DNA of 28,507 bases from a virus. Where the stretch lies: the IMG/VR virus record IMGVR_UViG_3300048033_001438, positions 1 to 28,507 of that record; one strand, given 5' to 3'. The notes under the pieces are model-generated. The model did not search any database and was not told where the DNA came from. It saw nothing but the letters and a program-made list of their open reading frames with translations. This document shows positions 6,191 through 28,070 of the stretch, piece after piece. Both the position numbers and the translations under genes were made by a program. Numbering within the stretch: the first letter of the stretch is position 1; every line of letters begins with the position of its first letter.

Positions 6191-6486
6191 TAAATAAACT
6201 CTTTAAATGATTTAAACTGTGGTTCTTCAATTTCTAAAACTAAATTACTATCACCTGCTTTATAAATTCTGTGATATTCCATTTTAGGAATAGTTAAAAC
6301 ATCGCCTTCTTCTAATTCAATAGGGATATTATTATCCATTTGAAAAAACCAGCCGTTACCTTCTAATACTGTAACGATACGATCAGCTTTGTCACGATGC
6401 CAAACTAATTCGTGAGAATCGGTATTTGACTCAAATACGCGTGTTTTAAAACGTCCTTTTACTGTGTCTGTGTATGGTTTGCTCAT
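6190..6486 (-). CDS. Small cupin-fold protein with C-terminal SFKEFI tail
   Basis: 98 residues. The WHRD segment with a downstream VLEGNGW, then EEGDVLTIPKMEYHRI, follows the two cupin motifs: metal-binding His/Glu, a Gly-Asp turn, and a C-terminal His. ATG 6486 is chosen because it follows the upstream stop by one base; longer frames would run inside that gene. The last residues are FKSFKEFI, strikingly like the N-terminal SF(K/S)xF targeting peptides of neighbouring proteins, but at the C terminus. The stop overlaps the ATG of the ligase-like gene. Similar cupins occur in other marine phages in my memory, with no assigned substrate. Confidence 0.8.
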   Translation of the reverse strand: MSKPYTDTVKGRFKTRVFESNTDSHELVWHRDKADRIVTVLEGNGWFFQMDNNIPIELEEGDVLTIPKMEYHRIYKAGDSNLVLEIEEPQFKSFKEFI

Positions 6487-13170: not shown

Positions 13171-13199
13171 ATTATACCATAAGTTATGATATTTGTATA
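13171..13199 (-). promoter_or_regulatory. Early-type promoter of uvsX operon
   Basis: Minus strand: TATACA, 17 nt, TATAAT. The spacer ends AACTTATGG, the element shared with the other early-type promoters here. The -10 ends 23 nt before the ATG, leaving a normal leader with AAGGA. Confidence 0.85.
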
Positions 13200-15588: not shown

Positions 15589-15659
15589 AAAGTCATTAGC
15601 CAACATATCGCAACACCGAGTGCTACAAATAATGCTATTGTCATATCTATTGGAATCAT
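15585..15659 (-). CDS. 24-residue membrane microprotein
   Basis: A tiny frame, MIPIDMTIALFVALGVAICW followed by LMTL, forming a single hydrophobic helix from about residue 7 to the end. The ATG at 15659 overlaps the stop of the preceding gene as ATGA, and its own TGA overlaps the ATG of alpha-glucosyltransferase the same way. It exactly fills a gap in a tightly coupled operon, which argues for translation. The function is unknown; it could be a membrane effector or a device for coupling translation. Confidence 0.62.
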   Translation of the reverse strand: MIPIDMTIALFVALGVAICWLMTL

Positions 15660-15949: not shown

Positions 15950-15963
15950 AAATTTATTTATCG

Positions 15964-16401
15964 TTATTTAAGGTACGTTACTTTTACGCCGGCTTCTTCT
16001 AGATAGTCCATTCCTTTTCCACAAGAATCGTTCCATCGTATGTTGCTGGCTTCTCCCATAACAACTTCTTTTATGCCGACTTGAATAATAGCTTTAGAAC
16101 ATTCATGGCAACAGGGTAATCCGTGCACATACATTGTTGCACCATTAAGTGAAACTCCGTTATGTGCACAGTTGTATATTGCATTCATTTCAGCATGGAC
16201 AATGCGATCATATTTTGTTTCGCGGTTCTTATATAATTCATCACTATCGTCCATGCCTCGAGGAAAGCCATTATATCCCTGAGACAACACTTGTCCTGAT
16301 TCGCCAATAACTACTGCACCGCATTGCGTTGAAGGATCTTTCGACCATTGCGCAATATCGCGAGCTAAATCTAAATAGCGTTTATTCCATTTATTACTCA
16401 T
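15964..16401 (-). CDS. cd: dCMP deaminase
   Basis: 145 residues. It deaminates dCMP to dUMP, feeding thymidylate synthesis. The zinc-dependent deaminase signature is complete: HAEMNAI (H69, catalytic E71) and PCCHEC (C98 and C101 as zinc ligands). The N-terminal DPSTQCGAVV and GYNGFPRG match phage and bacterial dCMP deaminases. ATG 16401 overlaps the upstream gene by 8 bp (ATGAGTAA); an upstream TTG would add one residue. It shares an operon with alpha-glucosyltransferase and so contributes to reshaping the pyrimidine pool. Confidence 0.95.
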   Translation of the reverse strand: MSNKWNKRYLDLARDIAQWSKDPSTQCGAVVIGESGQVLSQGYNGFPRGMDDSDELYKNRETKYDRIVHAEMNAIYNCAHNGVSLNGATMYVHGLPCCHECSKAIIQVGIKEVVMGEASNIRWNDSCGKGMDYLEEAGVKVTYLK

Positions 16402-16777
16402 CAATGTATTCTGACTTTAAGTCAAAAAGACTTTGAGTCTCCTTTGGTTTTTCTCGATTCAAAAAATCTTTGTTAGGATCTTGACCTTCGATACCACCTC
16501 TTGCGTACGCACCAATAAAGGATGCATAGTTGATTAAGTCTTTACAAGAGTCTTCGATTGATTCGAAGTTTTGCTCGTAATCAGGATCATTTTCCATAGC
16601 TTCAATTACGGAATACATTCTAAGAACTTTAGCGTACACAATATCTAATATCGTAAGAGCACCTCGAGGATAGTAGTCAGCTTGACTAATACGAGATTTA
16701 TCGTTTTGATAATCGTTTGATTTACGCAACTGCAAAGCAATTGCTTCGTTAATAATTTTGATTGATTCTTTATCCAT
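16394..16777 (-). CDS. Nucleotide-modification-associated domain 1-like protein (Nmad1/DUF1599)
   Basis: 127 residues, all-helical. The arrangement DYQNDKSR, then GALTILDIVYAKVLRMYS, then ESIEDSCKDLINYASFIGAY fits the Nmad1 (DUF1599) pattern, a family found in phages with modified DNA. The E-D/D-L-I-N-Y-A helix probably forms an acidic site, as in all-alpha NTP pyrophosphatases. It is first in the operon fed by the promoter at 16787-16815, whose predicted +1 lies only about 3 nt before the ATG. Adjacent dCMP deaminase and alpha-glucosyltransferase support a role in nucleotide modification. Confidence 0.72.
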   Translation of the reverse strand: MDKESIKIINEAIALQLRKSNDYQNDKSRISQADYYPRGALTILDIVYAKVLRMYSVIEAMENDPDYEQNFESIEDSCKDLINYASFIGAYARGGIEGQDPNKDFLNREKPKETQSLFDLKSEYIDE

Positions 16778-16786
16778 TATCTATAT

Positions 16787-16815
16787 ATTATACCTTAAGT
16801 TTAGTGTTTTGTAAA
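16787..16815 (-). promoter_or_regulatory. Early-type promoter of the modification operon
   Basis: Minus strand: TTTACA, 17 nt, TATAAT, with AAACTTAAGG before the -10. It overlaps the 3' end of the upstream gene. The -10 ends 9 nt before the ATG, so the transcript should have a leader of about 3 nt. Confidence 0.88.
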
Positions 16816-17309
16816 TGGTTAACGTTTAAAACTCGCCATGTATCGCCTTTTCTTTCTGACAAATTAACTGCTTCTCTAAGAGGAAGGATTCCTTTAAACT
16901 CAAATTCTAAAACTTGTCCAATCTTATAATAGTTTTCTATGTTTTGAGTATAGCCAACGATATGAGTAAGTTGCTTACGCTCATAAGACTGAATCATTTT
17001 AGGAATATCGTTTAGACAAATATTGGGCCATTGGGCTGGTTTGCGTTTTAAGTCGATGAAAGTATTGTCGTCATACTTCCAATCGTGACGCCATTGGTAA
17101 TTTTCCTCTTCGCCTGTTTCCGGATTAGTTGCGATTTTATCTACTTTCATTTTACCAGCACGACGTGCGGTGAACTCAAGTGCAAGTGCATCTACGTTTT
17201 CACGACTGCTATACGCTGGTTTCTTTGCCTCTTCATCGAGTCTATTGAGCAACCATTCGTCTACTACGTATGTATGATTATTAATTATTTCTGCAATCTC
17301 TTCAATCAT
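16788..17309 (-). CDS. Unknown protein, possibly PD-(D/E)XK nuclease-like
   Basis: 173 residues; no confident family. Residues ~38-105 contain ALEFTARRAGKMKVD, then DDNTFIDLKRKP, which could be the E...D...(D/E)xK core of a PD-(D/E)XK nuclease, with a following helix IPKMIQSYERKQL. The rest (LEFEFKGILPLREAVNL) is beta-rich. The ATG overlaps the stop of gene 42 as ATGA, so it is coupled to hydroxymethylcytosine synthesis. A nuclease distinguishing modified from unmodified DNA would fit this position, but the catalytic reading is tentative. It could equally be a small phage-specific protein. Confidence 0.72.
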   Translation of the reverse strand: MIEEIAEIINNHTYVVDEWLLNRLDEEAKKPAYSSRENVDALALEFTARRAGKMKVDKIATNPETGEEENYQWRHDWKYDDNTFIDLKRKPAQWPNICLNDIPKMIQSYERKQLTHIVGYTQNIENYYKIGQVLEFEFKGILPLREAVNLSERKGDTWRVLNVNHLQNTKLKV

Positions 17310-18064
17310 GTGTGTTTTGAGTTTGTAGGAAATGTTATCGCTTCCATAGTATTACCAAAGCATTCGTCAGCGATTGAAATAGTTTCTTGTCGTTTATTTT
17401 CAGACGCAATAAACTCGTCGATGAATTTGAAGTGGCGTTCGTAAACGTGCATTGAACCAACATTCCAATAGATGTTACCAAGTTCAACTTTAAGTTCGTG
17501 GCACATCATATCTGCCATGTACTTTTGCCAAGCGAAATCATTACGATAGCCAAAGACTACATCATTACTACGCATTTGAACAACTACTTCGAGTTTGTTG
17601 TCGCGAATCATATATTGAACTGCGTTAGTACAGATAAAGTCAGACATACCATTTTTGTTGTATTCTTTCCAAATACTTGGACGCGTATAAATCATAACTG
17701 CACGACGTGAGTCTGGATTCTTGTGAAGTTCCATTGCGCAATTATAGTATTGACTGAAGTTATCTTCGTGAAAAGTAAGATAACCATAGTTGGAATTAAT
17801 CATACCTTTTTTATCAGATATCATTTGCCAAATTTGTGGAACATCACCTTCGATGTCATTGACGTTAAGTGAACGAGATAAGTACCAATCGAGTTCACGA
17901 TTGATATAGTCTTGATTAATTTTACCAAAGACTGTGGGTTCGTCTGCTACAAAATTAGCATTAACGATTTCAATTGTTTTTACGCCAGTTTTATCTTGAA
18001 CGTAATCTTCTGATTTGCGTTTACGAACAAATTCGTTGCGTATATTTTTTACGGAGTTTTGCAT
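17306..18064 (-). CDS. 42: dCMP hydroxymethylase (T4 gp42 type)
   Basis: 252 residues (T4 gp42 is about 246). It converts dCMP to 5-hydroxymethyl-dCMP with methylenetetrahydrofolate. The family is related to thymidylate synthase: NSNYG (91-95), NPDSRR (116-121), catalytic Cys145 in DFICTNAVQYM, and RSNDVVFGYRNDFAWQKY. In the last block Asp176 aligns with the Asn that selects dUMP in thymidylate synthase; Asp there marks dCMP use. VDKTGVKTIEI-like, FVADEP and MIYTRPS blocks match recalled T4 gp42 rather than ThyA. The promoter at 18072-18101 places +1 at or one base before the ATG. Its product is the substrate base for Agt after incorporation. Confidence 0.94.
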   Translation of the reverse strand: MQNSVKNIRNEFVRKRKSEDYVQDKTGVKTIEIVNANFVADEPTVFGKINQDYINRELDWYLSRSLNVNDIEGDVPQIWQMISDKKGMINSNYGYLTFHEDNFSQYYNCAMELHKNPDSRRAVMIYTRPSIWKEYNKNGMSDFICTNAVQYMIRDNKLEVVVQMRSNDVVFGYRNDFAWQKYMADMMCHELKVELGNIYWNVGSMHVYERHFKFIDEFIASENKRQETISIADECFGNTMEAITFPTNSKHT

Positions 18065-18071
18065 ACGGTAT

Positions 18072-18101
18072 ATTATACTCTAGGTTTAGATAGTCTGTAA
18101 A
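18072..18101 (-). promoter_or_regulatory. Early-type promoter of gene 42
   Basis: Minus strand: TTTACA, 18 nt, TATAAT, with the AACCTAGAG spacer variant. The -10 ends 7 nt before the ATG, giving a leaderless or 1-nt-leader transcript. Confidence 0.82.
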
Positions 18102-18105
18102 CCTA

Positions 18106-18366
18106 TTAATGCCCTTTTTGTACAAGTGTATAGCTTGGAATAATTGGAGCATTTTCTCCATTGAAAAATGTTTCTACCCATTCAAGGCGGGTTTCTTCTG
18201 GAAGGCGATCAAAAATACGATCTGCCATAGGTGTGAAGTGTGTGACTTCAACCGTAACGCTTCCAGTTTTTTTGTTAGTGTCTACATTAATGGAATGATC
18301 TCGAGTTGAGTATTCATCTCGAGTTTTAGTGAGTGTTTCAAATTTTATGTGTTTTACTTTTTGCAT
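18106..18366 (-). CDS. Small protein of unknown function
   Basis: 86 residues. No family recognised. The sequence suggests a beta-sheet region (HSINVDTNKKTGSVTVEVTH) followed by a helical, acidic stretch (LPEETRLEWVETFFNGENA). ATG 18366 is chosen because it falls 7 nt after the stop of the preceding gene, whereas longer frames would overlap that gene. It is the last member of the small-gene cluster following tRNA-Ser. Confidence 0.7.
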   Translation of the reverse strand: MQKVKHIKFETLTKTRDEYSTRDHSINVDTNKKTGSVTVEVTHFTPMADRIFDRLPEETRLEWVETFFNGENAPIIPSYTLVQKGH

Positions 18367-18373
18367 ATTAAAT

Positions 18374-18565
18374 TTATTTATTGAGTTTTTTACTATCAAC
18401 GAAACACTCTGGCTTTTCAGCAAATACGTTAATCGGTGCGCCAGGACTTCCCCACCACTTTTCAGCTTGGAGTTTTACTTCATTGGTAAGAGCACGATCG
18501 CAGTCTTTTCCAAAGCTTATGCAACCGCGTTCGGTGCACCAACATCTATCTTTATATCCTATCAT
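18374..18565 (-). CDS. Small Cys-rich protein
   Basis: 63 residues with a CWCTERGC cluster followed by C22 and C54, suggesting a small metal-binding fold. No family recognised. It starts 3 nt after the preceding gene's stop and fills the space before the next one, consistent with the packed operon. Function unknown. Confidence 0.65.
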   Translation of the reverse strand: MIGYKDRCWCTERGCISFGKDCDRALTNEVKLQAEKWWGSPGAPINVFAEKPECFVDSKKLNK

Positions 18566-18568
18566 AAT

Positions 18569-18835
18569 TTACATGCTCCAATAAGTTTCACTTGAGGGTG
18601 AGCAATAATAAGGCGTGTCATATCGCTCTTGAAAGTCTTTTCCACTCATCATATTTTTTCTTGTGACGTACGTTTCGTGAATTTCGTATCGCTCGTTTTC
18701 TGCGATTGAATCTTTAACACCTTTTTCCAAAGAAGATTTTTCCATGTTTGGCCAATCATCTTTAGTGACCAACTTTTCTCCTCGCTTACAGCGTTTGTCG
18801 CTGCGATAAATTTCAACTGTATAATCTTTAAGCAT
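18569..18835 (-). CDS. Small phage protein of unknown function
   Basis: 88 residues. The N terminus YTVEIYRSDKRCKRGEKLV is a beta-strand-rich, basic segment that I recall from other T4-like marine phages without a function. The C-terminal part is polar with Tyr clusters. ATG 18835 overlaps the upstream gene by 8 bp. It lies in the early-type small-gene operon. Confidence 0.75.
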   Translation of the reverse strand: MLKDYTVEIYRSDKRCKRGEKLVTKDDWPNMEKSSLEKGVKDSIAENERYEIHETYVTRKNMMSGKDFQERYDTPYYCSPSSETYWSM

Positions 18836-19166
18836 TTTTAATTAAAGGATAAATAGGATTTTCGATCTTTTTCCAACCAAATGACTCGCATAAAAAATAC
18901 TCTCCATCTACTACGACTATATCACCAGTCGATAAAGAATAGTGCCTTTGTGCTCGAAAATCATTTGCAATGTTGAGCTCGACTTCGCTTAGCATTTCTT
19001 CAGGAGCGTTTAAGATGTGAAACACGAGTTCAGCAGCTTCTTCGGCAAAACGTTCCTTTTTAATTTGAGGAAGATCGCATTTAAAAATCAACTCTCGCCC
19101 TGCATGTTCGTCTGCGTCAAACGCCCCTCTAGAATTATATGGTCGATGTATTTCGATCTTATTCAT
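18828..19166 (-). CDS. Small protein with a STGDIVVVDGEYF-type beta motif
   Basis: 112 residues. The C-terminal half contains YSLSTGDIVVVDGEYFLCES followed by FGWKKI, a beta-barrel-like motif that I recall from other phage and archaeal-virus small proteins, possibly YodL-like. The N-terminal half is helical and acidic. ATG 19166 is chosen, one base after the upstream stop; a TTG at 19175 is less likely. Function unknown. Confidence 0.75.
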   Translation of the reverse strand: MNKIEIHRPYNSRGAFDADEHAGRELIFKCDLPQIKKERFAEEAAELVFHILNAPEEMLSEVELNIANDFRAQRHYSLSTGDIVVVDGEYFLCESFGWKKIENPIYPLIKNA

Positions 19167-19167
19167 A

Positions 19168-19449
19168 TTAAGCAACCTTTGTTAAAAGTGAAGGAGAAAC
19201 GCGCCAGTTCTGAGTGTGCGTTGAGATGTTAATCGTTTTGCGATTTACCTTTTCAACGATTCCTTCGATGAGTCGTGAACCCGAAGTAAATTGAACCGTG
19301 TCACCTACTGTGAATGTCGATGCGACTGCAGCAATAAGTTTTTTGCTTTGAATTTTGTGTAGTTCAACTACGTGATTCAGATCGTCGCGATCCATTTTTG
19401 CAAATAGTACGTAGAGATCTTTCATTTCGTTTTGTGTGAGTTTAGCCAT
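19168..19449 (-). CDS. Small KOW/SH3-like barrel protein
   Basis: 93 residues. The first half is helical (MKDLYVLFAKMDRDDLNHVV). The second half, FTVGDTVQFTSGSRLIEGIV followed by EKVNRKTINI and WRVSPSLLTKV, looks like a KOW/Tudor-type small beta barrel, which often binds nucleic acid or ribosomal and transcription partners. The leader before ATG 19449 is A/C-rich with no Shine-Dalgarno sequence. It follows the tRNA gene in the same transcript. Confidence 0.78.
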   Translation of the reverse strand: MAKLTQNEMKDLYVLFAKMDRDDLNHVVELHKIQSKKLIAAVASTFTVGDTVQFTSGSRLIEGIVEKVNRKTINISTHTQNWRVSPSLLTKVA

Positions 19450-19493
19450 AATTTTGTTTTTGTGTTTTTGTGAGTGCCATGTTTAGGAAAAAA

Positions 19494-19583
19494 TGGCGGA
19501 GATAGTAGGATTCGAACCTACGGAAGCGATTAAACTTCGGCTCTTTAGCAAAGAGCTACCTTAAGCCTCTCAGTCATATCTCC
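19494..19583 (-). tRNA. tRNA-Ser (anticodon GCU)
   Basis: A complete 90-nt class II tRNA. The acceptor stem pairs GGAGATA with TATCTCC, followed by discriminator G and an encoded CCA. The anticodon arm is GCTCT-TTGCTAA-AGAGC, so the anticodon is GCU (reads AGC/AGU). The long variable arm has a GAAG/CTTC stem, and the T arm is GTAGG-TTCGAAT-CCTAC. It is transcribed from the promoter at 19617-19645 together with downstream small genes. Confidence 0.96.
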
Positions 19584-19616
19584 ATATAATTTATCTTTAT
19601 TAATTATTATAGAACT

Positions 19617-19645
19617 ATTATACCATAAGAAACACGGTGTGTGAA
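19617..19645 (-). promoter_or_regulatory. Early-type promoter of tRNA-Ser and small-gene operon
   Basis: Minus strand: TTCACA, 17 nt, TATAAT, with CTTATGG before the -10. The -10 ends 33 nt upstream of the tRNA 5' end. Confidence 0.82.
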
Positions 19646-19674
19646 CCGTTATTTTCATCCCACAAGCCCTTAAG

Positions 19675-19698
19675 TCATCTAAGTAGTTGATAGACAAT
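19675..19698. repeat. Direct repeat, copy 1
   Basis: TCATCTAAGTAGTTGATAG followed by ACAAT. It matches 19727-19750 at 23 of 24 positions, 52 bp apart. It lies in the noncoding gap between the primase-like gene and the tRNA promoter. Confidence 0.85.
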
Positions 19699-19703
19699 CA
19701 GAT

Positions 19704-19719
19704 AAAAAATGCATTTTTT
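19704..19719. repeat. Perfect 16-bp AT palindrome
   Basis: AAAAAATGCATTTTTT, a perfect inverted repeat located between the two direct repeats. It could act as a weak terminator for the primase transcript, a protein-binding site, or a melting element. Confidence 0.7.
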
Positions 19720-19726
19720 TGCACTT

Positions 19727-19750
19727 TCATCTAAGTAGTTGATAGTCAAT
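19727..19750. repeat. Direct repeat, copy 2
   Basis: TCATCTAAGTAGTTGATAG followed by TCAAT. It overlaps the last 5 bp of the primase-like gene. Confidence 0.85.
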
Positions 19751-20690
19751 TACTTACGCTTCGAAGGGCAAAATCAATTGCTCGTTGAGCTTCAAGCCTC
19801 ACAGGACGGCTTTTGTACCATCCGCCGGTTTCCCTATCCAACTCTCGTACGAGGGCTTCTACCTCCTCTGAGGTGATTGGATATCCACGCTTAATGGCAT
19901 TTGCAGAGATTGACATCATAATCTGATACATTTTGGAGTACCAGCCCGATTCACCAATCGTCATATATTCGTTGATCAACGTTTTGTTTACAAAAGGACA
20001 ATCACGATATGATGTCCAAGAATAGTTACTATTCGTCAATTGTGTTTTACGATATTCGTCAAGCTGTTTTTGAATTGCTTCAGGAAATTGAGATCCAAAA
20101 CTATTATGAGTATTCTCATTCACGAAATGGTGCTTATCCATCAATTCATCAGGATCAAGTATAGGACCATTGTGTTTAAAAATAAATTGATAAGAATTTG
20201 GATAATCCGCAGGAACGTAGTACATGCGAGACAAGTCTTTGGTCTGCGGATCGCCAAGAGAATTAAATTCTTGATTCACTGCAAACCAAAGATGTTTGAT
20301 TTTATTTGCTTCTACGTGTTTCGTTAACGGAAATACTATTCTGAACTTTGGTTTTTCTTTTGTGCTAGATGCTGAACTATAGCAAACGAATCGATTTCTT
20401 TCGAATGTTTTAATAGCTTCTTCAAACGTACCTTCGTATTCGTCGATGTCGAGTGCCACCCAACCACCCCACGAAAGTACATTGCGATTTGCTCGTGTAG
20501 TTCCTTTTTCGTAAACTGCTGGTGTAATAAGCGCTGATCCATTTTTTCGTTCTCCTTTTTTAGGTTTGTATCCTGGTTGTTCGCTTAACATATATAGCAA
20601 CTCCTCGAACTTTTCCCAAGTGGAAAAAGTCATTTGACGGTGTGTCTTATTGTCAAATATTGAGTTGAATATTGTTAGACTATATTCCAT
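19746..20690 (-). CDS. Primase-like protein (archaeo-eukaryotic primase / PrimPol-type)
   Basis: 314 residues. GWVALDIDEYEG (76-87) supplies an hDhD metal-binding motif (D81, D83), followed by FVCYSSASSTKEKPKFRIVF and later DLSRMYYVPADYP. This is the pattern of the archaeo-eukaryotic primase/PrimPol fold, not of the TOPRIM primase gp61 used by T4. The C-terminal third is helical. ATG 20690 is chosen (11-bp overlap with the upstream gene and a GGA 8 nt away); earlier starts at 20711 or 20726 overlap more. Next to the polymerase gene, and with no gp61 in the window, it may be the replicative primase. The fold assignment is moderately confident. Confidence 0.75.
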   Translation of the reverse strand: MEYSLTIFNSIFDNKTHRQMTFSTWEKFEELLYMLSEQPGYKPKKGERKNGSALITPAVYEKGTTRANRNVLSWGGWVALDIDEYEGTFEEAIKTFERNRFVCYSSASSTKEKPKFRIVFPLTKHVEANKIKHLWFAVNQEFNSLGDPQTKDLSRMYYVPADYPNSYQFIFKHNGPILDPDELMDKHHFVNENTHNSFGSQFPEAIQKQLDEYRKTQLTNSNYSWTSYRDCPFVNKTLINEYMTIGESGWYSKMYQIMMSISANAIKRGYPITSEEVEALVRELDRETGGWYKSRPVRLEAQRAIDFALRSVSN

Positions 20691-21093
20691 TAAGCAATCC
20701 GTGATTTCCATCGTGGCTAGGCGCAATCCAGCCTGTAGGCTTTACCAAATCTGGCAAACCTAAAGGATTAGGACGTGTTTCTTTTACGCCAACCTCTTTA
20801 GACATATTTGCTTGATGAACTTCATCCCAAGCCTGATGGGCATCTACGCCAAGCGCGTCAAGTGTACCAATAGCAACCACACACAAATCAATCAATCCAT
20901 CGACAACTTCTTCAGCGTCGATTGGAATACCTGCTTTTGCGGCGTTTTCAGTTTCACCTAATTCTTCGTGTAAAAAATCTAATCTAAAACGTAAAAAAGA
21001 TCGTAGCATAACACTATCGAAGTTCTTTACGGCGTTTCGCACACCATACTTTGTGTGCATATCATTTATATCTTGTACCCAGTCTTTACTCAT
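20680..21093 (-). CDS. All-alpha NTP pyrophosphatase-like protein (MazG/HisE type)
   Basis: 137 residues. FLHEELGETENA (E43, E44, E47) and DAEEVVDGLIDLCVVAIGTL (acidic residues E62, D65, D69) form the EExxE...ExxD metal-binding site of all-alpha NTP pyrophosphatases, followed by DEVHQANMSK, a tail typical of the PRA-PH/MazG group. T4 removes dCTP with gp56, a different branch of the same fold, so a dCTP/dCDP-cleaving role that favours hydroxymethyl-dCTP is plausible but unproven. The promoter at 21103-21131 gives a near-leaderless transcript. Confidence 0.83.
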   Translation of the reverse strand: MSKDWVQDINDMHTKYGVRNAVKNFDSVMLRSFLRFRLDFLHEELGETENAAKAGIPIDAEEVVDGLIDLCVVAIGTLDALGVDAHQAWDEVHQANMSKEVGVKETRPNPLGLPDLVKPTGWIAPSHDGNHGLLNGI

Positions 21094-21102
21094 TATCTAT
21101 AT

Positions 21103-21131
21103 ATTATAATCTAAGTTTATTGTTTTGTACA
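21103..21131 (-). promoter_or_regulatory. Early-type promoter of the NTP pyrophosphatase-like gene
   Basis: Minus strand: TGTACA, 17 nt, TATAAT. From the -10 to the ATG it reads TATAATATATAGATAATG, the same as at 16787. The predicted leader is about 3 nt. Confidence 0.86.
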
Positions 21132-21134
21132 CTC

Positions 21135-23609
21135 CTAAAAGAAGAATTGTTGTAAGTCTGCTTTAGGTTCGGCTGACCAACCAATGGCATTGAGTATGAT
21201 ATCAATTGGATCAATGAAAGTTTTTTGAAATTGTAAGTTGTAGTCGATGTATTTTTTGATCTCCAATTCTTCTGGCAAAAAGTCGGGAAACGCGATTACG
21301 TTTTCTTGAATAGAGTTTGGAATAAGCAAATACACGAATTTGACTTTGTCGCCATTCTGAATGAGTTGATATTTTTTATCAAGAGCTTTTGCTTTTAAGT
21401 GATGATTGTAAAGTAGCGAACCACGTACATGGATTGGACTACCTTTACGATAAATACGACCTTTTTCTGAATACGATGAGACATCAGTTACGCCACGAGG
21501 GAATGCTACTTGATCAGGACTTAGTGTTTTGAAGTGTTCTTTAAATAAACTAATTGCTTCTTGTGTTTTTGATTCGTCGCCCGTGACAATAACCTTAAAC
21601 AGCTGATTCATTGCACTACGACACGCCTGTGGTGTAGAAGACTTAACGGCTTCAATCCCCATGATCTTAATCTTAGGTTCAGCATATTGGACACCTTCGT
21701 TATTATGTACATTTAGTATGTAACGTTTCTTTGCAGTCCAAATACCACGATCGGCAATCGCCTCACGTTTCATGACCATACGATTTGAATACGCTTTAGT
21801 ACGTTCTGCAAACTGATCAAATGCTTTTGCCAACATAGGTTCAATTGCCTTAGAACCAAATTCGTCGAGGAATGATACAGGATTGTTTGGCTTGAATTTA
21901 TCAACAACATCTTTTACACCAATGTAAAGAGAGTCAGTATCCATCGCAATAACGCGATCCTTAGATTCGCCAAGGAAATCGTCAAGGTAATTGTTGACAT
22001 TTGTTTCGGCGTATTTGATAACCTCTTGGCCTGTTAATGTAATTGCTGATGCGATTCGTAAATCAAAGTAACGGAAGTACTTGTTGCCCATTGCGCCATA
22101 TAGACTATTAAGGAGAATCTTAATCGCGGTTTGGAGTGTTTCGAGACGAGCAACTTGACCAGAGGTTTGAGCGTACTCGTTGCGTTGACGTTTTGAAATA
22201 GTTTCAAGTTTAGTTTTTGCTTGGAGCATGTCACCTTTAATCGTGACACGTTTAGCATATAGTTCTTCAACAATTTCGGGAATAATACCTTTCTTGTCCT
22301 TACGAAAGACTGCACCATTAGACGCAGTTGCGCCATCAGCATTAGTAACACCAATCAAAGTTTCAGGTGACATGTTGTATTGAACAATAAGATTAGGATA
22401 AAGTGAGTTTAAGTCAAAAGACATTACCCAATCATGCATACCGACATGAGGATCTTTTACGTATCCGCCTGGAAATTGTTCAGTTTCTTTTGGTACACTT
22501 GGAAGGATCGCGATCTTTGAACGTGCTAGACGACGGAAAATAATTGAGTCCCATATTGCTGTTGTACCAAGAGTGTCTTGATAGTTTACACCGCCAAGAT
22601 AAGCCATAGTCAATACCAATGTGATAAGGCCAAGCTTTTCTTCCATACGTTCAATAAGCTCAACGTCTTTGATGTTGTAGTCAACAAACATTTGAAAGTC
22701 TACATCGTATAGATCACGCAAGGTACCAACCTCAGAATAGTCAAGTTTCTTTTCACCGAGTACTACACTCGAAATATGATTCAAAGAATAAGATTCTTGA
22801 TTGCCATACGTATATGCAAACTTTTTAAAGAGTTCCATATAGTCAAGGTGTTGAATACCCATGATGTCAAAGGCAATTTGTTTACGACCTTTGATAAAGA
22901 TTTCCTTACGTTCAATCTTACGCCAAGGTGATAAATTGCGAACCTTTTCTTCACCAAGCAAGAATGCCATGCGAGCAACCATGTATGGAATATCAAAGAA
23001 ACGAGTATTCCAACCTGTAATGATATCAGGCGTATTTTCAGGATCTGACCAAAAGTCAATAAAAGCTTCAAGCATCGAAGATTCAGCAGTGAACTGACGA
23101 TAGTCGATTTTTAAGTGTTTAAGCGATGTAATAGCTTCGTCATAAGGTTTCATACCCCAAACGCGATAAGTGTCATCCTTTGAGCTTTTGTACGCAATTG
23201 TAAGAATCTGATTGACAGGATTGTCAACCTCAGGAAAACCATCACCATAAGATGTTTCAATATCAAGTGAAGCAACGTCAACTAAATTGCGATGATAAAC
23301 AATTTCGTTTGGAAATTGATTTTGAATAAACGCTGGGATGTGACGTGTATTTCCATAAAGACAAAAATCAGGAACGCCATTATAGGACTTTTCAAATTCC
23401 TTGACTTCTTTCATTGAGCCAAACTGCAAAGGCTCGACTGGCGTACCATCGAGAGCTTTCCAATCTGTAACAGTCTTTTGAGACTTAAGATAAAGTGTAG
23501 GTTTGTACGCAATGCGATGAGTAATTTTTTTACCATCTGCGTCATAACCGCGATATAGAAGTTTGTTACCTAGTCTTTCGACACTAGTGTAGAATCCTGT
23601 TAAAATCAT
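21135..23609 (-). CDS. 43: Family B DNA polymerase (T4 gp43 type)
   Basis: 824 residues (T4 gp43 is 898; marine relatives are shorter). This is the replicative polymerase with 3'-5' proofreading. Exonuclease motifs are D116-I-E118 in VASLDIETSYGDG, Exo II GWNTRFFDIPYM (199-210) and Exo III YNIKDVELI (D315). Polymerase motifs are A DLNSLYPNLI (399-408), B KILLNSLYGAMGNKYFRYFD (497-516) and C MDTDSLYIG (D557, D559). The N-terminal and C-terminal parts are intact, ending in a LQQFFF tail that resembles the clamp-binding C terminus of T4 gp43. The promoter at 23616-23644 puts +1 exactly on the A of the ATG. Confidence 0.98.
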   Translation of the reverse strand: MILTGFYTSVERLGNKLLYRGYDADGKKITHRIAYKPTLYLKSQKTVTDWKALDGTPVEPLQFGSMKEVKEFEKSYNGVPDFCLYGNTRHIPAFIQNQFPNEIVYHRNLVDVASLDIETSYGDGFPEVDNPVNQILTIAYKSSKDDTYRVWGMKPYDEAITSLKHLKIDYRQFTAESSMLEAFIDFWSDPENTPDIITGWNTRFFDIPYMVARMAFLLGEEKVRNLSPWRKIERKEIFIKGRKQIAFDIMGIQHLDYMELFKKFAYTYGNQESYSLNHISSVVLGEKKLDYSEVGTLRDLYDVDFQMFVDYNIKDVELIERMEEKLGLITLVLTMAYLGGVNYQDTLGTTAIWDSIIFRRLARSKIAILPSVPKETEQFPGGYVKDPHVGMHDWVMSFDLNSLYPNLIVQYNMSPETLIGVTNADGATASNGAVFRKDKKGIIPEIVEELYAKRVTIKGDMLQAKTKLETISKRQRNEYAQTSGQVARLETLQTAIKILLNSLYGAMGNKYFRYFDLRIASAITLTGQEVIKYAETNVNNYLDDFLGESKDRVIAMDTDSLYIGVKDVVDKFKPNNPVSFLDEFGSKAIEPMLAKAFDQFAERTKAYSNRMVMKREAIADRGIWTAKKRYILNVHNNEGVQYAEPKIKIMGIEAVKSSTPQACRSAMNQLFKVIVTGDESKTQEAISLFKEHFKTLSPDQVAFPRGVTDVSSYSEKGRIYRKGSPIHVRGSLLYNHHLKAKALDKKYQLIQNGDKVKFVYLLIPNSIQENVIAFPDFLPEELEIKKYIDYNLQFQKTFIDPIDIILNAIGWSAEPKADLQQFFF

Positions 23610-23615
23610 ACTATA

Positions 23616-23644
23616 ATTATACCATAAGTTTTATGGTATGTACA
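23616..23644 (-). promoter_or_regulatory. Early-type promoter of DNA polymerase, predicted leaderless
   Basis: Minus strand: TGTACA, 17 nt, TATAAT, with AACTTATGG before the -10. Six bases separate the -10 from ATG 23609, so the expected +1 is the A of the start codon. Confidence 0.87.
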
Positions 23645-23648
23645 CTGC

Positions 23649-24101
23649 TTATTTTAGCGATATGAGTGTATTTTTTCCCTTTTTGCTCCATTCATAATCG
23701 CCATAAAACTTCTTAAGTTTTGCGATAACTGCTTTATTTACAGGATCAACCTGAATCGTATTAAGCTTTTTAGAATCTAAAACAAATTGTTTTTCATAAG
23801 GATAAACTAAATCTAAAACACCTAATCCTTTTATGGTATTGCCATCATCATCTCTTACAATGGTTTGGTCCATAACAAAGGTAGAACCTTTAATCATACG
23901 ACTAATACGGAAACGTTTTTTACCAGTCTTCTTATCAACTACGACACGCGTATTTTTGTCAACAGGATTGCCAAAGGTGTCTGTTCCATTCGGATCAATA
24001 TTCCAACCTCGAGTAGCAATTACTTTTTCGAATCCTTTCCAATACGTTGGCATATTGTTTTCAAGTAATACTTCAAGCGTTGTTTCTACCAATGATTTCA
24101 T
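23649..24101 (-). CDS. Putative late head protein with targeting-like N terminus
   Basis: 150 residues; no family recognised. The N terminus MKSLVETTLEVLLENN resembles the capsid-targeting peptides of the 1-9.9 kb block, with an LLE^N cut site after E14. The remainder is beta-rich and basic (DKKTGKKRFRISRMIKGSTF). It has its own late promoter directly before the ATG (24107-24114), so the transcript should be leaderless. It lies alone among early genes, away from the main late block. Inference: an internal head protein. Confidence 0.78.
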   Translation of the reverse strand: MKSLVETTLEVLLENNMPTYWKGFEKVIATRGWNIDPNGTDTFGNPVDKNTRVVVDKKTGKKRFRISRMIKGSTFVMDQTIVRDDDGNTIKGLGVLDLVYPYEKQFVLDSKKLNTIQVDPVNKAVIAKLKKFYGDYEWSKKGKNTLISLK

Positions 24102-24106
24102 ATATC

Positions 24107-24114
24107 TATTTATA
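24107..24114 (-). promoter_or_regulatory. T4-type late promoter, predicted leaderless
   Basis: Exact TATAAATA on the minus strand with only 5 nt to ATG 24101, so the expected +1 is the A of the ATG. Its upstream edge abuts the T-run of the terminator-like repeat at 24120-24158. Confidence 0.82.
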
Positions 24115-24119
24115 AAAAA

Positions 24120-24158
24120 TCCCCTTTACTTCATAGGCGAAAGAGGCAAAGACCAATA
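24120..24158 (-). terminator. Terminator-like hairpin, repeat copy 1
   Basis: On the minus strand CCTCTTT pairs with AAAGGGG (one T-G pair) around a 12-nt loop, followed by ATTTTTT. It lies just after the stop of the 79-residue gene. The 39-bp element recurs at 24431-24469 with one mismatch. Its T-run runs into the late promoter at 24107-24114. Confidence 0.7.
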
Positions 24159-24160
24159 CG

Positions 24161-24400
24161 TTAGCCGTTACTTACAAACTCATTGAGTTCGCGGGCTTTT
24201 TTAACTATATCACTATCACTCGGAAACGGTAGTGGCTCATAAGGAGCCGGGATTTCATAATCATGATCGAGTGCTCGACTAGTTAAAACTCCGTGGTGTT
24301 CTCGCAATGCATCATTGTTTGAGTGCCACTTTTCGACTGTTAATTCTTTTGACATATTCAAAATGTCAAATCGGATTTCATACGGGTTTTTTTCGCTCAT
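24161..24400 (-). CDS. Small conserved T4-like phage protein
   Basis: 79 residues. The N terminus NPYEIRFDILNMSKELTVEK matches a small protein I recall as widespread in marine T4-like phages (NPYEIRLxxLxMA...), function unknown. It is helical, with a Pro-rich central segment (PAPYEPLPFP). The leader before ATG 24400 is an A/C-rich run without a Shine-Dalgarno sequence. The gene is bracketed by two near-identical terminator-like hairpins, and no promoter of its own is visible. Confidence 0.82.
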   Translation of the reverse strand: MSEKNPYEIRFDILNMSKELTVEKWHSNNDALREHHGVLTSRALDHDYEIPAPYEPLPFPSDSDIVKKARELNEFVSNG

Positions 24401-24430
24401 TGTGTGTGTGTTGTGTTTGTGTTAATAAAG

Positions 24431-24469
24431 TCCCCTTTACTTCATAGGCGAAAGAGGGAAAGACCAATA
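24431..24469 (-). terminator. Terminator-like hairpin, repeat copy 2
   Basis: Same 39-bp element as 24120-24158 (38 of 39 identical), directly after the Hsp20 stop. The following CTTTATTAAC is a weaker T-run than in copy 1, so this copy may process or attenuate rather than end the transcript, which would let the next gene be read. Confidence 0.6.
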
Positions 24470-24472
24470 GGA

Positions 24473-24907
24473 TTATTCTGCCAAAAATTCTGGCTTCGAA
24501 TTAATAGAGAAGCTCTTTGGCTTTTTCTCTTCTGGAATATTTTTCACCAGATAGACAGAAAGAATACCATCGACAAGCGCAACAGATTCTACTTCAACAA
24601 ACTCACCAAGTGTGAATGTCTTTTTGAATTTGCGTGTTGCAATACCTTTGTGAATGTATTCTTTATTGCCGTTCAAATCTACATCTTTAGATGCAATTGT
24701 AAGAACGTCTTTTTCTTGCTCAACGAATAAATCTTTTTCGTTAAAGCCTGCTACGGCGAGAGCAATTTCAAAATTGTCTTTGCCGTGTTTAACAACATTA
24801 TGAGGTGGATAACCTTCTTGTTGTGATTGTAATTTTTCGAGTCTATCAAACATAGACTCGAAACCGATTGTCCAGGATTGGCCTGGCCATGTGTATGCAT
24901 TTGTCAT
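24473..24907 (-). CDS. Small heat shock protein (Hsp20 family)
   Basis: 144 residues. The alpha-crystallin domain spans ~40-130: VVKHGKDNFEIALAVAGFNE opens the beta-sandwich, and ALVDGILSVYL carries the AxxxxGxL signature near its end. The C-terminal tail SFSINSKP contains an I-x-x-like anchoring segment. It is an ATP-independent chaperone holding unfolded protein; Hsp20 genes are common in marine T4-like phages, where a role in virion assembly is suspected. A late promoter (24972-24979) provides a ~60-nt leader with a strong GGAGG 10 nt before the ATG and a 5' hairpin. Confidence 0.95.
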   Translation of the reverse strand: MTNAYTWPGQSWTIGFESMFDRLEKLQSQQEGYPPHNVVKHGKDNFEIALAVAGFNEKDLFVEQEKDVLTIASKDVDLNGNKEYIHKGIATRKFKKTFTLGEFVEVESVALVDGILSVYLVKNIPEEKKPKSFSINSKPEFLAE

Positions 24908-24939
24908 TTTATTTTTTCCTCCGTTAGGCAGGTTAAGGC

Positions 24940-24963
24940 GACAACCCCATTGTGGGCATTGTC
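24940..24963 (-). promoter_or_regulatory. Hairpin in the Hsp20 leader
   Basis: On the minus strand GACAAtgCCCa pairs with TGGGGTTGTC: outer GACAA/TTGTC, inner CCCA/TGGG. It lies near the predicted 5' end of the late transcript, upstream of the GGAGG. It may stabilise the mRNA or tune translation. Confidence 0.55.
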
Positions 24964-24971
24964 TATAAAAC

Positions 24972-24979
24972 TATTTATA
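24972..24979 (-). promoter_or_regulatory. T4-type late promoter of Hsp20
   Basis: Exact TATAAATA on the minus strand. It contains the TAA stop codon of the Ntn-hydrolase gene. The leader to ATG 24907 is about 60 nt. Confidence 0.78.
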
Positions 24980-25907
24980 CAATTACTCGTGTATTTTTTG
25001 AAAAAGTGATAAACTCTTTAAACGATAAAAGTTTACGAGATGAAATAATTTCAAAAAACGTCTTAGCTTCAGGATTATTTAATTTATCATATTTAAATTC
25101 AACTGAAGAATAAATTGGTCTATAGTGAAGTGTTCTATCTTTTGGCGTTAACATCAATTGTCCTGTTGTAACCATTTCAGCTTTTTTAGTGTCACCAACA
25201 CGAATGGGATTCATAAAAGGATCTTTATCTGGTGACTGCGCAATAGCATCAATCATTTCACTCGGTTCTTTAAAATCGGGCTTTAAAAATTTAGTTGCAT
25301 ATTCATAGCGCTGTTCAGAACTTTTACGCGCTTTAACTAATTCTTCATCTTCAGGGTCAACCTTATAACCAAGTTCAGGTATTAATATTCCATGATTTGT
25401 TCTAACAGATATTTCGTCATCTTTTAACTTCACCATTTTAGAAATAAACTTACGAGGATTATCTTTAGTTGCATCTTCTTTGCGTACTAAAAATCCACCT
25501 TCGATTAAATAACATTCTTTTTCGTTAAAAACATACGTACAACCAGAAAGTTCATAAGCAATTAATTTTTTTGCAGCTGCTTCTGGTGTTTTTTCTAAAA
25601 GTGCTTTACGAATAGCTTTGCCATCAGGAGAATAATAACCATCAGCGTTCCTACGAGCCATTCGTTGGTTAGTAATTTTATCACCTTCTTTTTCATCACT
25701 CTTTACTGATAATGACGCCGATAAAACACAAACGCCATACTCATTTAACCCTTCTGTCCAACGACTTAATTTATCATCAATATATAAGCGCTGCATACCA
25801 TCACGGTTGTTTTGATTAATAACGACTTCCGTTTTGTAGTTTCGGTCTCGATTTTTTACACCAACCCAACCAAATTTATTTATTCTCTTAACAGCTACTA
25901 CACACAT
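24975..25907 (-). CDS. Cysteine Ntn-hydrolase (C45/NRDE-like) with C-terminal SFKEFI motif
   Basis: 310 residues. Met1 is followed by Cys2, which becomes the N-terminal nucleophile after Met removal, as in C45 and penicillin-acylase-like Ntn hydrolases. Supporting motifs are NRD (19-21), WTEGLNEYG (50-58, with the oxyanion-hole Asn55) and RTNHG (169-173). Family members hydrolyse or transfer linear amide bonds; the substrate is unknown here. The tail contains KLLSFKEFITFSKN, very like the N-terminal targeting peptides of the head proteins but C-terminal. A late promoter (25913-25920) 5 nt from the ATG predicts a leaderless transcript, needed for nothing but striking, since the nucleophile is codon 2. 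Confidence 0.82.
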   Translation of the reverse strand: MCVVAVKRINKFGWVGVKNRDRNYKTEVVINQNNRDGMQRLYIDDKLSRWTEGLNEYGVCVLSASLSVKSDEKEGDKITNQRMARRNADGYYSPDGKAIRKALLEKTPEAAAKKLIAYELSGCTYVFNEKECYLIEGGFLVRKEDATKDNPRKFISKMVKLKDDEISVRTNHGILIPELGYKVDPEDEELVKARKSSEQRYEYATKFLKPDFKEPSEMIDAIAQSPDKDPFMNPIRVGDTKKAEMVTTGQLMLTPKDRTLHYRPIYSSVEFKYDKLNNPEAKTFFEIISSRKLLSFKEFITFSKNTRVIV

Positions 25908-25912
25908 ATAAC

Positions 25913-25920
25913 TATTTATA
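25913..25920 (-). promoter_or_regulatory. T4-type late promoter, predicted leaderless
   Basis: Exact TATAAATA on the minus strand with 5 nt to ATG 25907, so the expected +1 is the A of the ATG. Confidence 0.82.
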
Positions 25921-25923
25921 CGA

Positions 25924-26346
25924 TTATGCTTTCTTAACGTTGCCTATAGAGTATTTTGATTCAAGGTTCCACTCGTTTTTGTCACGGTGGGATATAATTT
26001 TTATTTGTCTCAACGAGGTTTTTGTTTCAGCCTGTAATTCATCTACGATTGTAAGTAATCCCCAATCAGATAAAAGAGTAGTGATAGTATTCCGACGTCC
26101 AATATCGTCCTCTGTAAAATTAGATGGTTTACCATCAAGCATAAAAAGCTCTTTAAAATGAACGATAAAGTATCGACCTTGTTTGTGAAGTATGTGACAG
26201 CTTTGAAATAAAGTGTTATGTTCTTTTTTCGAAGCAACTCCGATACGCGTAAGAGTTTCTTTAATCTTAAGAAAGTCGTCGGGTTCATTTAGTAATACCT
26301 CCAACATATTTGAAGGTGTCCATTCAATAGGTGTCTGTGTTTGCAT
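25924..26346 (-). CDS. regA: RegA translational repressor
   Basis: 140 residues (T4 RegA is 122). RegA binds the start region of early mRNAs and blocks ribosome loading. PDDFLKIKETLTRIGVASKK, QSCHILHKQGRYFIVHFKEL and DWGLLTIVDE match recalled T4 RegA almost word for word. T4 RegA begins at the equivalent of Met14 here, so ATG 26307 is an alternative start. ATG 26346 is kept because a GGA lies 7 nt upstream and a late promoter precedes it. The gene order 44-62-(small gene)-regA-(…)-43 follows T4. Confidence 0.95.
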   Translation of the reverse strand: MQTQTPIEWTPSNMLEVLLNEPDDFLKIKETLTRIGVASKKEHNTLFQSCHILHKQGRYFIVHFKELFMLDGKPSNFTEDDIGRRNTITTLLSDWGLLTIVDELQAETKTSLRQIKIISHRDKNEWNLESKYSIGNVKKA

Positions 26347-26368
26347 AATTTATTCCATTGTAAAGAAT

Positions 26369-26376
26369 TATTTATA
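26369..26376 (-). promoter_or_regulatory. T4-type late promoter upstream of regA
   Basis: Exact TATAAATA on the minus strand, 22 nt before ATG 26346, in the gap between the small gene and regA. It would allow RegA synthesis late, in addition to read-through from the gene 44 promoter. Confidence 0.72.
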
Positions 26377-26394
26377 CAAAACACTATTTACGCT

Positions 26395-26661
26395 TTATAC
26401 CTCCTTTTTAAATGATTGATACCAATATTGAGAAGAATCACGTAAGGTCTGATTTGAGGATCTGATGAATTCTAATTGTGCAATAAGCTGTCTCTGTATT
26501 TCGCTGAAAAAGTCTTCGTCTTTTCCTGAAATAAGAGGTTTAATTTCGTCATCTAATACTTCGATTATGTGATCAATATACTTGCATGTTGGTCCTACAT
26601 ACGTGGGAGATTTAAGTTTATATGTATCTATTTTAATTTGTTTTGCATTTTTTCTTGCCAT
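26395..26661 (-). CDS. Small protein between gene 62 and regA
   Basis: 88 residues, basic at the N terminus (MARKNAKQIKIDTYKLKSP) and helical after that (IDHIIEVLDDEIKPLISGK), ending in KKEV. No family recognised. Translation is strongly supported by a perfect AAAGGAGGT placed 8 nt before the ATG, embedded in the last codons of gene 62. Position between clamp-loader genes and regA suggests a replication accessory role, without direct evidence. Confidence 0.82.
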   Translation of the reverse strand: MARKNAKQIKIDTYKLKSPTYVGPTCKYIDHIIEVLDDEIKPLISGKDEDFFSEIQRQLIAQLEFIRSSNQTLRDSSQYWYQSFKKEV

Positions 26662-26662
26662 A

Positions 26663-27097
26663 TTATTTACCTCCTTTGTCTAAAATTTTGTGAAGTTGCA
26701 TCATAGCTGATTTTGAAAAAAGCGGATAAACAGCTTCGGCTTTTTCCTGCGAATAGTTATAATACTGTTGAATTGCCTTTATATCTTCAGAAGACTTTGA
26801 CTTCTTACCCCACTTTGAAAACCTTTTTTTAGGTGTTACAATATTGCGATAAAAGTCATACTGCATTCGCGGTGGAAGTTGATTTTTCACATTCATTTCA
26901 TTAGCAAAAAGTGCGGTATCTTTAAAGTAAGACAACCCACGATTAATGATAAAGGGAACATATTGTTTGTCCGCTGCATCAGGATTAACCATTTCAAGTG
27001 AATCATCAGCAGTGCAATCTTCTAAAAGGTGTTTACCCCTTTTTCCTTCATTGATAGACTTTATAAAGTCAAATGGTGATAGCTTTTTTACTTCCAT
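26663..27097 (-). CDS. 62: Clamp loader small subunit (T4 gp62 type)
   Basis: 144 residues (T4 gp62 is 187). It joins gp44 in the ATP-driven loader that opens the sliding clamp gp45. The N terminus LSPFDFIKSINEGKRG, then QYVPFIINRGLSYFKDT, LFANEMN, and RFSKWGKK match the gp62 family of marine T4-like phages. ATG 27097 is chosen: it overlaps gene 44 by 10 bp and gives the usual N terminus, whereas a GTG at 27127 would add ten poorly conserved residues. The 3' end carries the ribosome-binding site of the next gene. Confidence 0.93.
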   Translation of the reverse strand: MEVKKLSPFDFIKSINEGKRGKHLLEDCTADDSLEMVNPDAADKQYVPFIINRGLSYFKDTALFANEMNVKNQLPPRMQYDFYRNIVTPKKRFSKWGKKSKSSEDIKAIQQYYNYSQEKAEAVYPLFSKSAMMQLHKILDKGGK

Positions 27098-28035
27098 TCT
27101 GATGATGCCATGATTTCGGTTAGACACGCAACAGTATTAAGTTCCTTGTCTGCTACGAAGGCCGTTTTAAATTGATAGTCTGCAAGAATAAGAATGATTG
27201 CAGGAATAGAATGAGGTTGAGCAAAGTCGTAAAGAGTGTCATAAATTCTACGAAAAATAACGGATGAATCGATATCAGTATTATTAGTAACCCAAGAACG
27301 CATGCTTTTAAAGTCTTTGTCCTTTAAGTGATGTACTAGGGCTGCAATGTTTTGATCTGATAAACCAATCAATATGTCTGATGTAATTTCACCAGATGAT
27401 GAATAGCGTTGACACTCGTTGAGTACGCGCCGCCAATCAGGAGCATAACGCATAATAAGTTCAGCCACGATTTTGTTGTTAAAGTCAACCTCTTCAGACT
27501 TTAGAATATGCTGCAATCGTTTCATGAACTGCGCAGCTAATTCAGCAAGTTGCTTTTTAGTTGTGTTGAATTCAATTACAGCACAACGTGAATGAAGAGG
27601 TTCGATGATTCGATTCTTAAAATTACAAGTAAGAATAAATCTGCAATTAGAACTAAACTCTTCGATGAAACCACGTAATGCTGGTTGAGTTGATTGAGCA
27701 TTGAGATAATCAGCCTCATCTAAAATAACAACCTTGTATTTACCACCATTCAATGAAACGGTAGATGCAAATTGTTTAATAGTAGAACGAAGAGTATCAA
27801 TGTTACCTGATTCGGAAGCATTGATAAGTAAATAATCTAAGTCAAGTTCATTACACAGCGCACGGGCAACTGTGGTTTTACCTAACCCTGCAGAACCAGT
27901 GAGTAGCATATTATGCATTTCACCTGTATCTACGATTTGCTGAAAAGTCTTTTTTAGACTTGACGGAAGAATACAATCTTCAATAGTTTGAGGCCGATGT
28001 TTTTCGACCCATAAGAACTCGTTTTGTTTTGTCAT
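27088..28035 (-). CDS. 44: Clamp loader ATPase subunit (T4 gp44 type)
   Basis: 315 residues (T4 gp44 is 319). The AAA+ subunit of the clamp loader. Walker A is GSAGLGKT (47-54), Walker B VVILDEAD (102-109), the SRC arginine-finger motif is HSRC (148-151), and PALRGFIEEFSSNCRFILTC (118-137) leads to sensor 1. The N terminus WVEKHRPQTIEDCILP matches the family. The promoter at 28042-28070 puts +1 on the A of the ATG, so this mRNA should be leaderless. T4 gene 44 mRNA is a classic RegA target, which makes the missing leader notable. Confidence 0.97.
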   Translation of the reverse strand: MTKQNEFLWVEKHRPQTIEDCILPSSLKKTFQQIVDTGEMHNMLLTGSAGLGKTTVARALCNELDLDYLLINASESGNIDTLRSTIKQFASTVSLNGGKYKVVILDEADYLNAQSTQPALRGFIEEFSSNCRFILTCNFKNRIIEPLHSRCAVIEFNTTKKQLAELAAQFMKRLQHILKSEEVDFNNKIVAELIMRYAPDWRRVLNECQRYSSSGEITSDILIGLSDQNIAALVHHLKDKDFKSMRSWVTNNTDIDSSVIFRRIYDTLYDFAQPHSIPAIILILADYQFKTAFVADKELNTVACLTEIMASSEWK

Positions 28036-28041
28036 AATATA

Positions 28042-28070
28042 ATTATACTCTAAGTTAGAGTATTTGTAAA
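28042..28070 (-). promoter_or_regulatory. Early-type promoter of gene 44, predicted leaderless
   Basis: Minus strand: TTTACA, 17 nt, TATAAT, with AACTTAGAG before the -10. Six bases separate the -10 from ATG 28035. The spacer contains an inverted repeat ACTCTAACTTAGAGT. Confidence 0.88.

Follow-up and report, generated by a model that had tools for sequence, protein, structure and literature searches.

Five early and at least two late promoters in a T4-type phage replication block very probably drive leaderless messenger RNAs (mRNAs), with 5′ leaders of 0–3 nucleotides (nt), as judged from promoter anatomy in a 28.5-kb viral contig of an uncultured marine T4 relative from IMG/VR (record IMGVR_UViG_3300048033_001438, positions 1 to 28,507; hereafter the window). 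The window has 36% G+C, and almost every gene lies on the minus strand. Its replication block encodes gp44, gp62, RegA, Hsp20, gp43, MazG, a primase and a gp42-like dCMP hydroxymethylase, together with dCMP deaminase, alpha-glucosyltransferase, UvsX and a gp41-type helicase, and includes the core T4-type replication set (gp44, gp62, RegA, gp43, gp41-type helicase and UvsX).

Early promoters and start codons of the replication genes

The preliminary description of this DNA had placed the −10 element of five early promoters 6–9 nt before a start codon, and re-derivation of the coordinates gave the same spacings. On the minus strand, gp44 (27088..28035; clamp-loader large subunit, Pfam Gp44_lid and AAA) is preceded by a sigma-70-type promoter, TTTACA-17 nt-TATAAT (28042..28070), with TATAAT (28042–28047) ending 6 nt before the ATG at 28035. 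The DNA polymerase gene gp43 (21135..23609, minus strand; Pfam DNA_pol_B and exonuclease domain) follows TGTACA-17 nt-TATAAT with the TG of an extended −10 (23616..23644; TATAAT 23616–23621), also 6 nt from its ATG (23609). For gp42, the hydroxymethylase gene (17306..18064, minus strand; thymidylate-synthase fold, Pfam PF00303, 57% identity to T4 gp42), the promoter is TTTACA-18 nt-TATAAT (18072..18101; TATAAT 18072–18077), 7 nt from ATG 18064. Two further minus-strand genes have a 9-nt gap: a MazG-like nucleotide pyrophosphohydrolase gene (20680..21093; Pfam PRA-PH, PHROG 671), with its promoter at 21103..21131 (TATAAT 21103–21108; ATG 21093), and a gene with a weak match to PHROG 1485 and a hydrolase family (16394..16777; the 16777 gene), whose promoter (16787..16815) has a TATAAT (16787–16792) overlapping the stop codon of the upstream open reading frame (ORF). 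All five promoters have a −35 hexamer (TTTACA or TGTACA) 17–18 nt upstream of TATAAT. The mRNAs of gp44, gp43 and gp42 are predicted to be leaderless, and those of MazG and the 16777 gene to carry leaders of 0–3 nt.

Leaderless genes and their recognition from sequence are already known: a TATAAT-like signal ∼12 base pairs (bp) upstream of the start is an established indicator of leaderless ('TA-led') genes in cellular genomes (PMC3160421). All five early genes in the window have a −10-like TATAAT ∼10–12 bp upstream of the start and, like bacterial TA-led genes, no Shine–Dalgarno (SD) sequence in between and an ATG start (PMC3160421). The bacterial TA-led genes are cellular, whereas here a T4-type phage lineage would have both sigma-70-type and gp55-type promoters set to place +1 at the AUG.

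Neither bare TATAAT (39 observed, 32.7 expected) nor promoter-like sites (53 observed, 66.6 expected) were enriched in the window; the non-random aspect is their position relative to start codons. TATAAT with a −35 element lay 5–9 nt from the start of five genes, compared with a mean of 0.066 and a maximum of 2 in 2000 dinucleotide-preserving shuffles. This test covered ∼36 gene starts; four of the 36 coordinates were not start codons, which leaves the five early cases unaffected.

A short gap would be spurious if the true starts lay downstream and the leaders were normal. Mis-assigned starts are a common error in phage annotation, and for MazG and the 16777 gene, whose starts are less constrained, codons 12 and 15 offer in-frame alternatives. 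For the other three genes such an error is nearly excluded. The next in-frame ATG, GTG or TTG is at codon 40 in gp44 and codon 61 in gp43, and gp42 has none within its first 80 codons. In the other direction, an in-frame stop lies 13 (gp44), 8 (gp43) and 6 (gp42) codons before the ATG, without an intervening start. Homology to relatives begins at residues 1–7, and the FYT of gp43 (residues 5–7) is invariant among them. The lack of alternative starts, with homology from the first residues, therefore argues that the short gap in gp44, gp43 and gp42 is no wrong-start artefact. ATG is the start in all window cases and in nearly all relatives (gp44, 28/28; gp42, 19/19; 16777 gene, 16/16; gp43, 39/41). 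Overall, we regard mis-assigned starts as a highly improbable explanation.

The short spacing is conserved across divergent relatives. We collected 80 related contigs with gp43 and counted distinct upstream regions. A promoter matching at least 10 of 12 positions, with its −10 ending 5–9 nt from the gp43 ATG, was found in 36 of 37 regions from the two closest clades (20/20 and 16/17). The closest clade (70–100% identity) had the −10 at 5–7 nt in all 20 regions, 18 of them at exactly 6, and the next (56–62% identity) had it at 6–9 nt in 16 of 17. The clade of phage C48C1 (L276–L355) is split, with 23 of 28 gp43 promoters at 6–7 nt and the remaining five at 27–28 nt, which may reflect leader gain or loss within the clade; pelagiphages showed mixed spacing. 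Using a slightly different cut, short-spaced early promoters exceeded shuffled expectation at gp43 (34/37 versus 0.5), gp44 (13/26 versus 0.3), gp42 (10/19 versus 0.25), the 16777 gene (8/14 versus 0.1) and MazG (9/27 versus 0.5), and in the same test on relatives none was found at gp62, hsp20, regA or dCMP deaminase. The gp44 promoter lay at 5–10 nt in 15 of 26 distinct relatives.

When the A of the ATG is numbered +1, information content in the gp43 set peaks at −35 to −30, −15/−14 and −12 to −7, and the spacer is unconserved. These are the standard sigma-70 positions, and therefore the ATG sits where +1 would be expected. An unbiased scan of strong early promoters across the window and the 80 contigs (81 contigs) found 161 that preceded an ORF within 40 nt. 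Their spacing was two-humped, with 78 at 5–9 nt (36 at exactly 6), a trough at 10–20 nt and a second broad mode at 21–34 nt, as would be expected of genes that either lack a leader or carry one long enough for a ribosome-binding site.

The promoters could be real and the leaderless RNA a minor form, with most protein made from longer read-through transcripts that begin upstream and whose translation is SD-less or coupled. In favour of this, most genes share one strand with little space between them, gp43, MazG, gp42 and the 16777 gene lie close behind other genes, and many internal genes have no recognisable SD. (SD counts at promoter genes are confounded, as GTGA or AGGT within promoters scores as an SD.) Nevertheless, the 6-nt spacing and the full promoter are sharply kept while the spacer diverges, suggesting that the promoter itself matters, and the several hundred bases before gp44 contain no other strong promoter match on the gp44 strand. 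We therefore consider read-through as the main source of protein unlikely.

Late promoters and comparison with other phages

Late promoters had been missed in the preliminary description. Three late-type boxes in the window end exactly 5 nt before an ATG, all on the minus strand. Two are T4-type late promoters, TATAAATA. The first (25913..25920) precedes ATG 25907 of a 310-amino-acid gene without a family match (24975..25907), the gap being 6 nt in relative L001 and 7 nt in L002. The second (24107..24114), conserved in L054, precedes ATG 24101 of a 150-amino-acid gene with no assigned function (23649..24101). Both genes are predicted to be leaderless. The third box, GATAAATA (15955..15962; ATG 15949), is a weaker case, as it is not TATAAATA and is not kept in the few relatives found. 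In the window shuffle test, NATAAATA exactly 5 nt before a start was observed three times, against a mean of 0.027 (∼36 starts, 2000 shuffles).

TATAAATA formed a single sharp peak at exactly 5 nt from the start (62/247 raw sites; 28/122 distinct contexts), with no sites at 0–4 nt. The peak persisted when contexts at least 80% alike were removed, and the genes behind it are mutually unrelated: RegA, a homing endonuclease, a prohead-protease-inhibitor-like protein and several families without known function. The structure of gp55 shows that it reads A residues at −12, −9 and −8 of the late promoter (PMC7892883). With TATAAATA at 5 nt and the ATG as +1, A falls at these three positions, and the box then lies about one helical turn upstream of +1, as in T4-type late promoters. 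Two promoter classes with different box geometry would thus give the same +1, and it is difficult to account for this other than by transcription starting on the AUG. Genes for gp55, gp33 and gp45 were not seen within the 28.5-kb fragment.

Chance mimicry of TATAAT and TATAAATA by A+T-rich sequence before starts is a conceivable source of these patterns, given the G+C content of the contig and the background frequency of bare TATAAT. However, this is hardly credible in view of the shuffle tests, the contrasts between gene classes and the single-nucleotide peaks at 5 and 6 nt; moreover, most other A+T-rich 8-mers gave no comparable peak, and the peak is absent from T4, which has a similar base composition.

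T4 shares with the window sigma-70-type early and TATAAATA late promoters and the replication genes 44, 62, regA, 43 and 42, and differs in their spacing. No T4 TATAAATA lies less than 13 nt from the next ATG (0/32 at 5 nt), in contrast to the 5-nt late cases in the window. Of 15 strong T4 early promoter matches, one lies at 5–9 nt and the other 14 are at least 20 nt upstream; T4-like leadered expression of genes 43 and 44 would call for promoters at least 20 nt from the ATG, compared with 6 nt in the window. The earlier proposals that the early mRNAs have 0–3 nt leaders, and that such expression of core replication genes is unlike T4, are thus supported by conservation, the two-humped spacing, the promoter numbering of both classes and the contrast with T4.

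Other phages differ in how far they share this layout. In cyanophage Syn9, none of nine TATAAATA sites is at 5 nt (the nearest is at 15 nt) and one of 14 early promoters is at 5–9 nt; in C48C1, one of 25 TATAAATA sites is at 5 nt. In the cultured pelagiphage HTVC008M, which infects SAR11, five of the 21 TATAAATA sites stand exactly 5 nt ahead of the starts of coding sequences (at 6280, 7562, 31132 and 49760 on the plus strand and 18916 on the minus strand) that the depositors annotated independently. Its early promoters lie at 5–9 nt in two of 20 cases, the −10 of its own gp43 promoter is at 12 nt, and its gp43 is 40% identical. HTVC008M and one relative contig also encode ribosomal protein bS21, considered as a possible link to leaderless translation; it was not found in the window or in most contigs, all of which are fragments.

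The lambda leaderless gene is cI, expressed from PRM. Lambda, where leaderless initiation was first found (PMC3160421), is likewise a case of a phage gene with an mRNA starting at the AUG, although a single regulatory gene of a temperate phage is concerned there and not the core replication genes of a T4-type lineage. Phage transcripts have been called often leaderless, yet long leaders were reported for AR9 (PMC5312081). In the literature we searched, which is short of the whole, there was no report of a T4-type lineage with leaderless replication and late genes.

RegA, leadered genes and the proposed initiation route

Some genes in the window have leaders. For uvsX, an internal control, the early promoter (13171..13199, minus strand) leaves a 23-nt gap to ATG 13147, and in relatives the −10 is ∼15–30 nt upstream. 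The hsp20 gene is leadered in all relatives, with SD-like GGAGG or AAGGAG. For regA (25924..26346, minus strand; translational repressor, Pfam Translat_reg, E = 4.6e-43), the late promoter TATAAATA (26369..26376, minus strand) is 22 nt from the ATG in the window and ∼5 nt in most relatives; by promoter spacing, 21 of 34 distinct relatives have a late regA that would be leaderless. With uvsX, hsp20 and the window regA leadered, the phage therefore mixes leaderless and leadered genes.

Two leaders have features of their own. The hsp20 leader (24908–24990) is kept among relatives, with AACCTGCCTAAC-GGAGG or AACTCGCTTAAC-AAGGAG just 5′ of the ATG, and may be structured or regulatory. Between TATAAATA and the regA ATG (26347–26376), 12 nt before regA, is a tiny ORF (ATG GAA TAA); the same place holds ATG AAA TAA in L001 and ATG TAA in L007, L031 and L044, and the tiny ORF was found only where regA is leadered.

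In T4 and RB69, RegA has A+U-rich sites located at the AUG or immediately 5′ of it (PMC3014915). The A/U-rich element before the window genes might then be mainly an RNA feature of longer mRNAs, such as a RegA operator or an A/U-rich ribosome enhancer. We judge this very unlikely, because the −35 hexamer and the extended −10 TG are kept at exact spacing, which an RNA operator would not need, and two different boxes each stand at their own promoter-specific distance. RegA in the window retains the residues equivalent to T4 K14, T18, R21 and W81. Most of the stretch that holds the known sites would be missing from a leaderless RNA, and it is a reasonable prediction, logically sound, that leaderless mRNAs would alter RegA control, as had been suggested. 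The RegA of this clade may bind within the start of the coding sequence, act on read-through RNAs or not control these genes at all.

We propose that host RNA polymerase with a sigma-70-type factor would recognise TTTACA-17-TATAAT for early transcription, and that a T4-type gp55 system would later recognise TATAAATA, with +1 in both promoter classes on the A of the AUG or no more than ∼3 nt from it. The ribosome would then start on the 5′-terminal AUG without a Shine–Dalgarno sequence, as for known leaderless mRNAs, which kasugamycin spares (PMC5230787). Genes with promoters 20–35 nt upstream would use ordinary leadered initiation, as would hsp20, which has a GGAGG leader, so that both modes would operate in one phage. 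The promoter anatomy, the exact spacing, its conservation in divergent relatives and the secure start codons are direct observations; we infer the transcription start, initiation at the 5′ AUG, any advantage and selection for this layout (as opposed to a by-product of compact intergenic space).

Several points weigh against leaderless expression. The support comes from DNA sequence, and read-through from upstream promoters could yield leadered mRNAs of the same genes. Short spacing at gp44 and MazG is retained in only part of the relatives. In 73 of 76 genes with a late box at 5 nt or an early −10 at 6 nt, a pyrimidine occupies −1, which fits initiation at the A; this adds little because most leadered starts of these phages have T at that position too (55/66). 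The reading also depends on the promoter spacing of the host and on its ability to translate leaderless mRNA; scans of genome contigs aimed at host assignment gave nothing closely related, the best match having 52% identity and coming from bins whose purity is doubtful.

T4 is the textbook example of replication genes that are controlled translationally at their ribosome-binding sites; if the messages of its marine relatives start at the AUG, such control must work differently. Promoter searches that expect normal leaders may then miss many promoters, and one survey of pelagimyophages reported being unable to predict their middle and late promoters (PMC7029224). The window would offer a clear example of a T4-type phage that uses leaderless expression systematically, and the late part appears to be shared by the SAR11 phage HTVC008M. 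A broader scenario, which we hold only tentatively and think doubtful, is that an entire lineage of marine T4-type phages moved early replication and part of the late programme onto leaderless mRNAs, so that core genes would use another route of ribosome initiation than leadered genes; this would bypass or alter RegA control and favour phage messages when ribosomes or initiation factors change in the course of infection.

Additional features of the window

A near-identical intergenic stretch, ATTGGTCTTT(C/G)CCTCTTTCGCCTATGAAGTAAAGGGGA, occurs twice (24115–24165 and 24425–24475), with a possible CCC...GGGG stem, and may be a terminator; one copy directly precedes a predicted leaderless late promoter. 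The closest annotated phage is C48C1 (48.5%), whose record gives no host. No gp42 match was found in Syn9, HTVC008M or C48C1. In the window, the gp42-like hydroxymethylase gene (17306–18064) co-occurs with a gene for an alpha-glucosyltransferase family protein (14383–15606), and this pairing suggests that the phage DNA contains glucosylated hydroxymethylcytosine. Finally, a direct repeat, CTATCAACTACTTAGATGA, lies at 19690–19760, upstream of the tRNA-Ser promoter.

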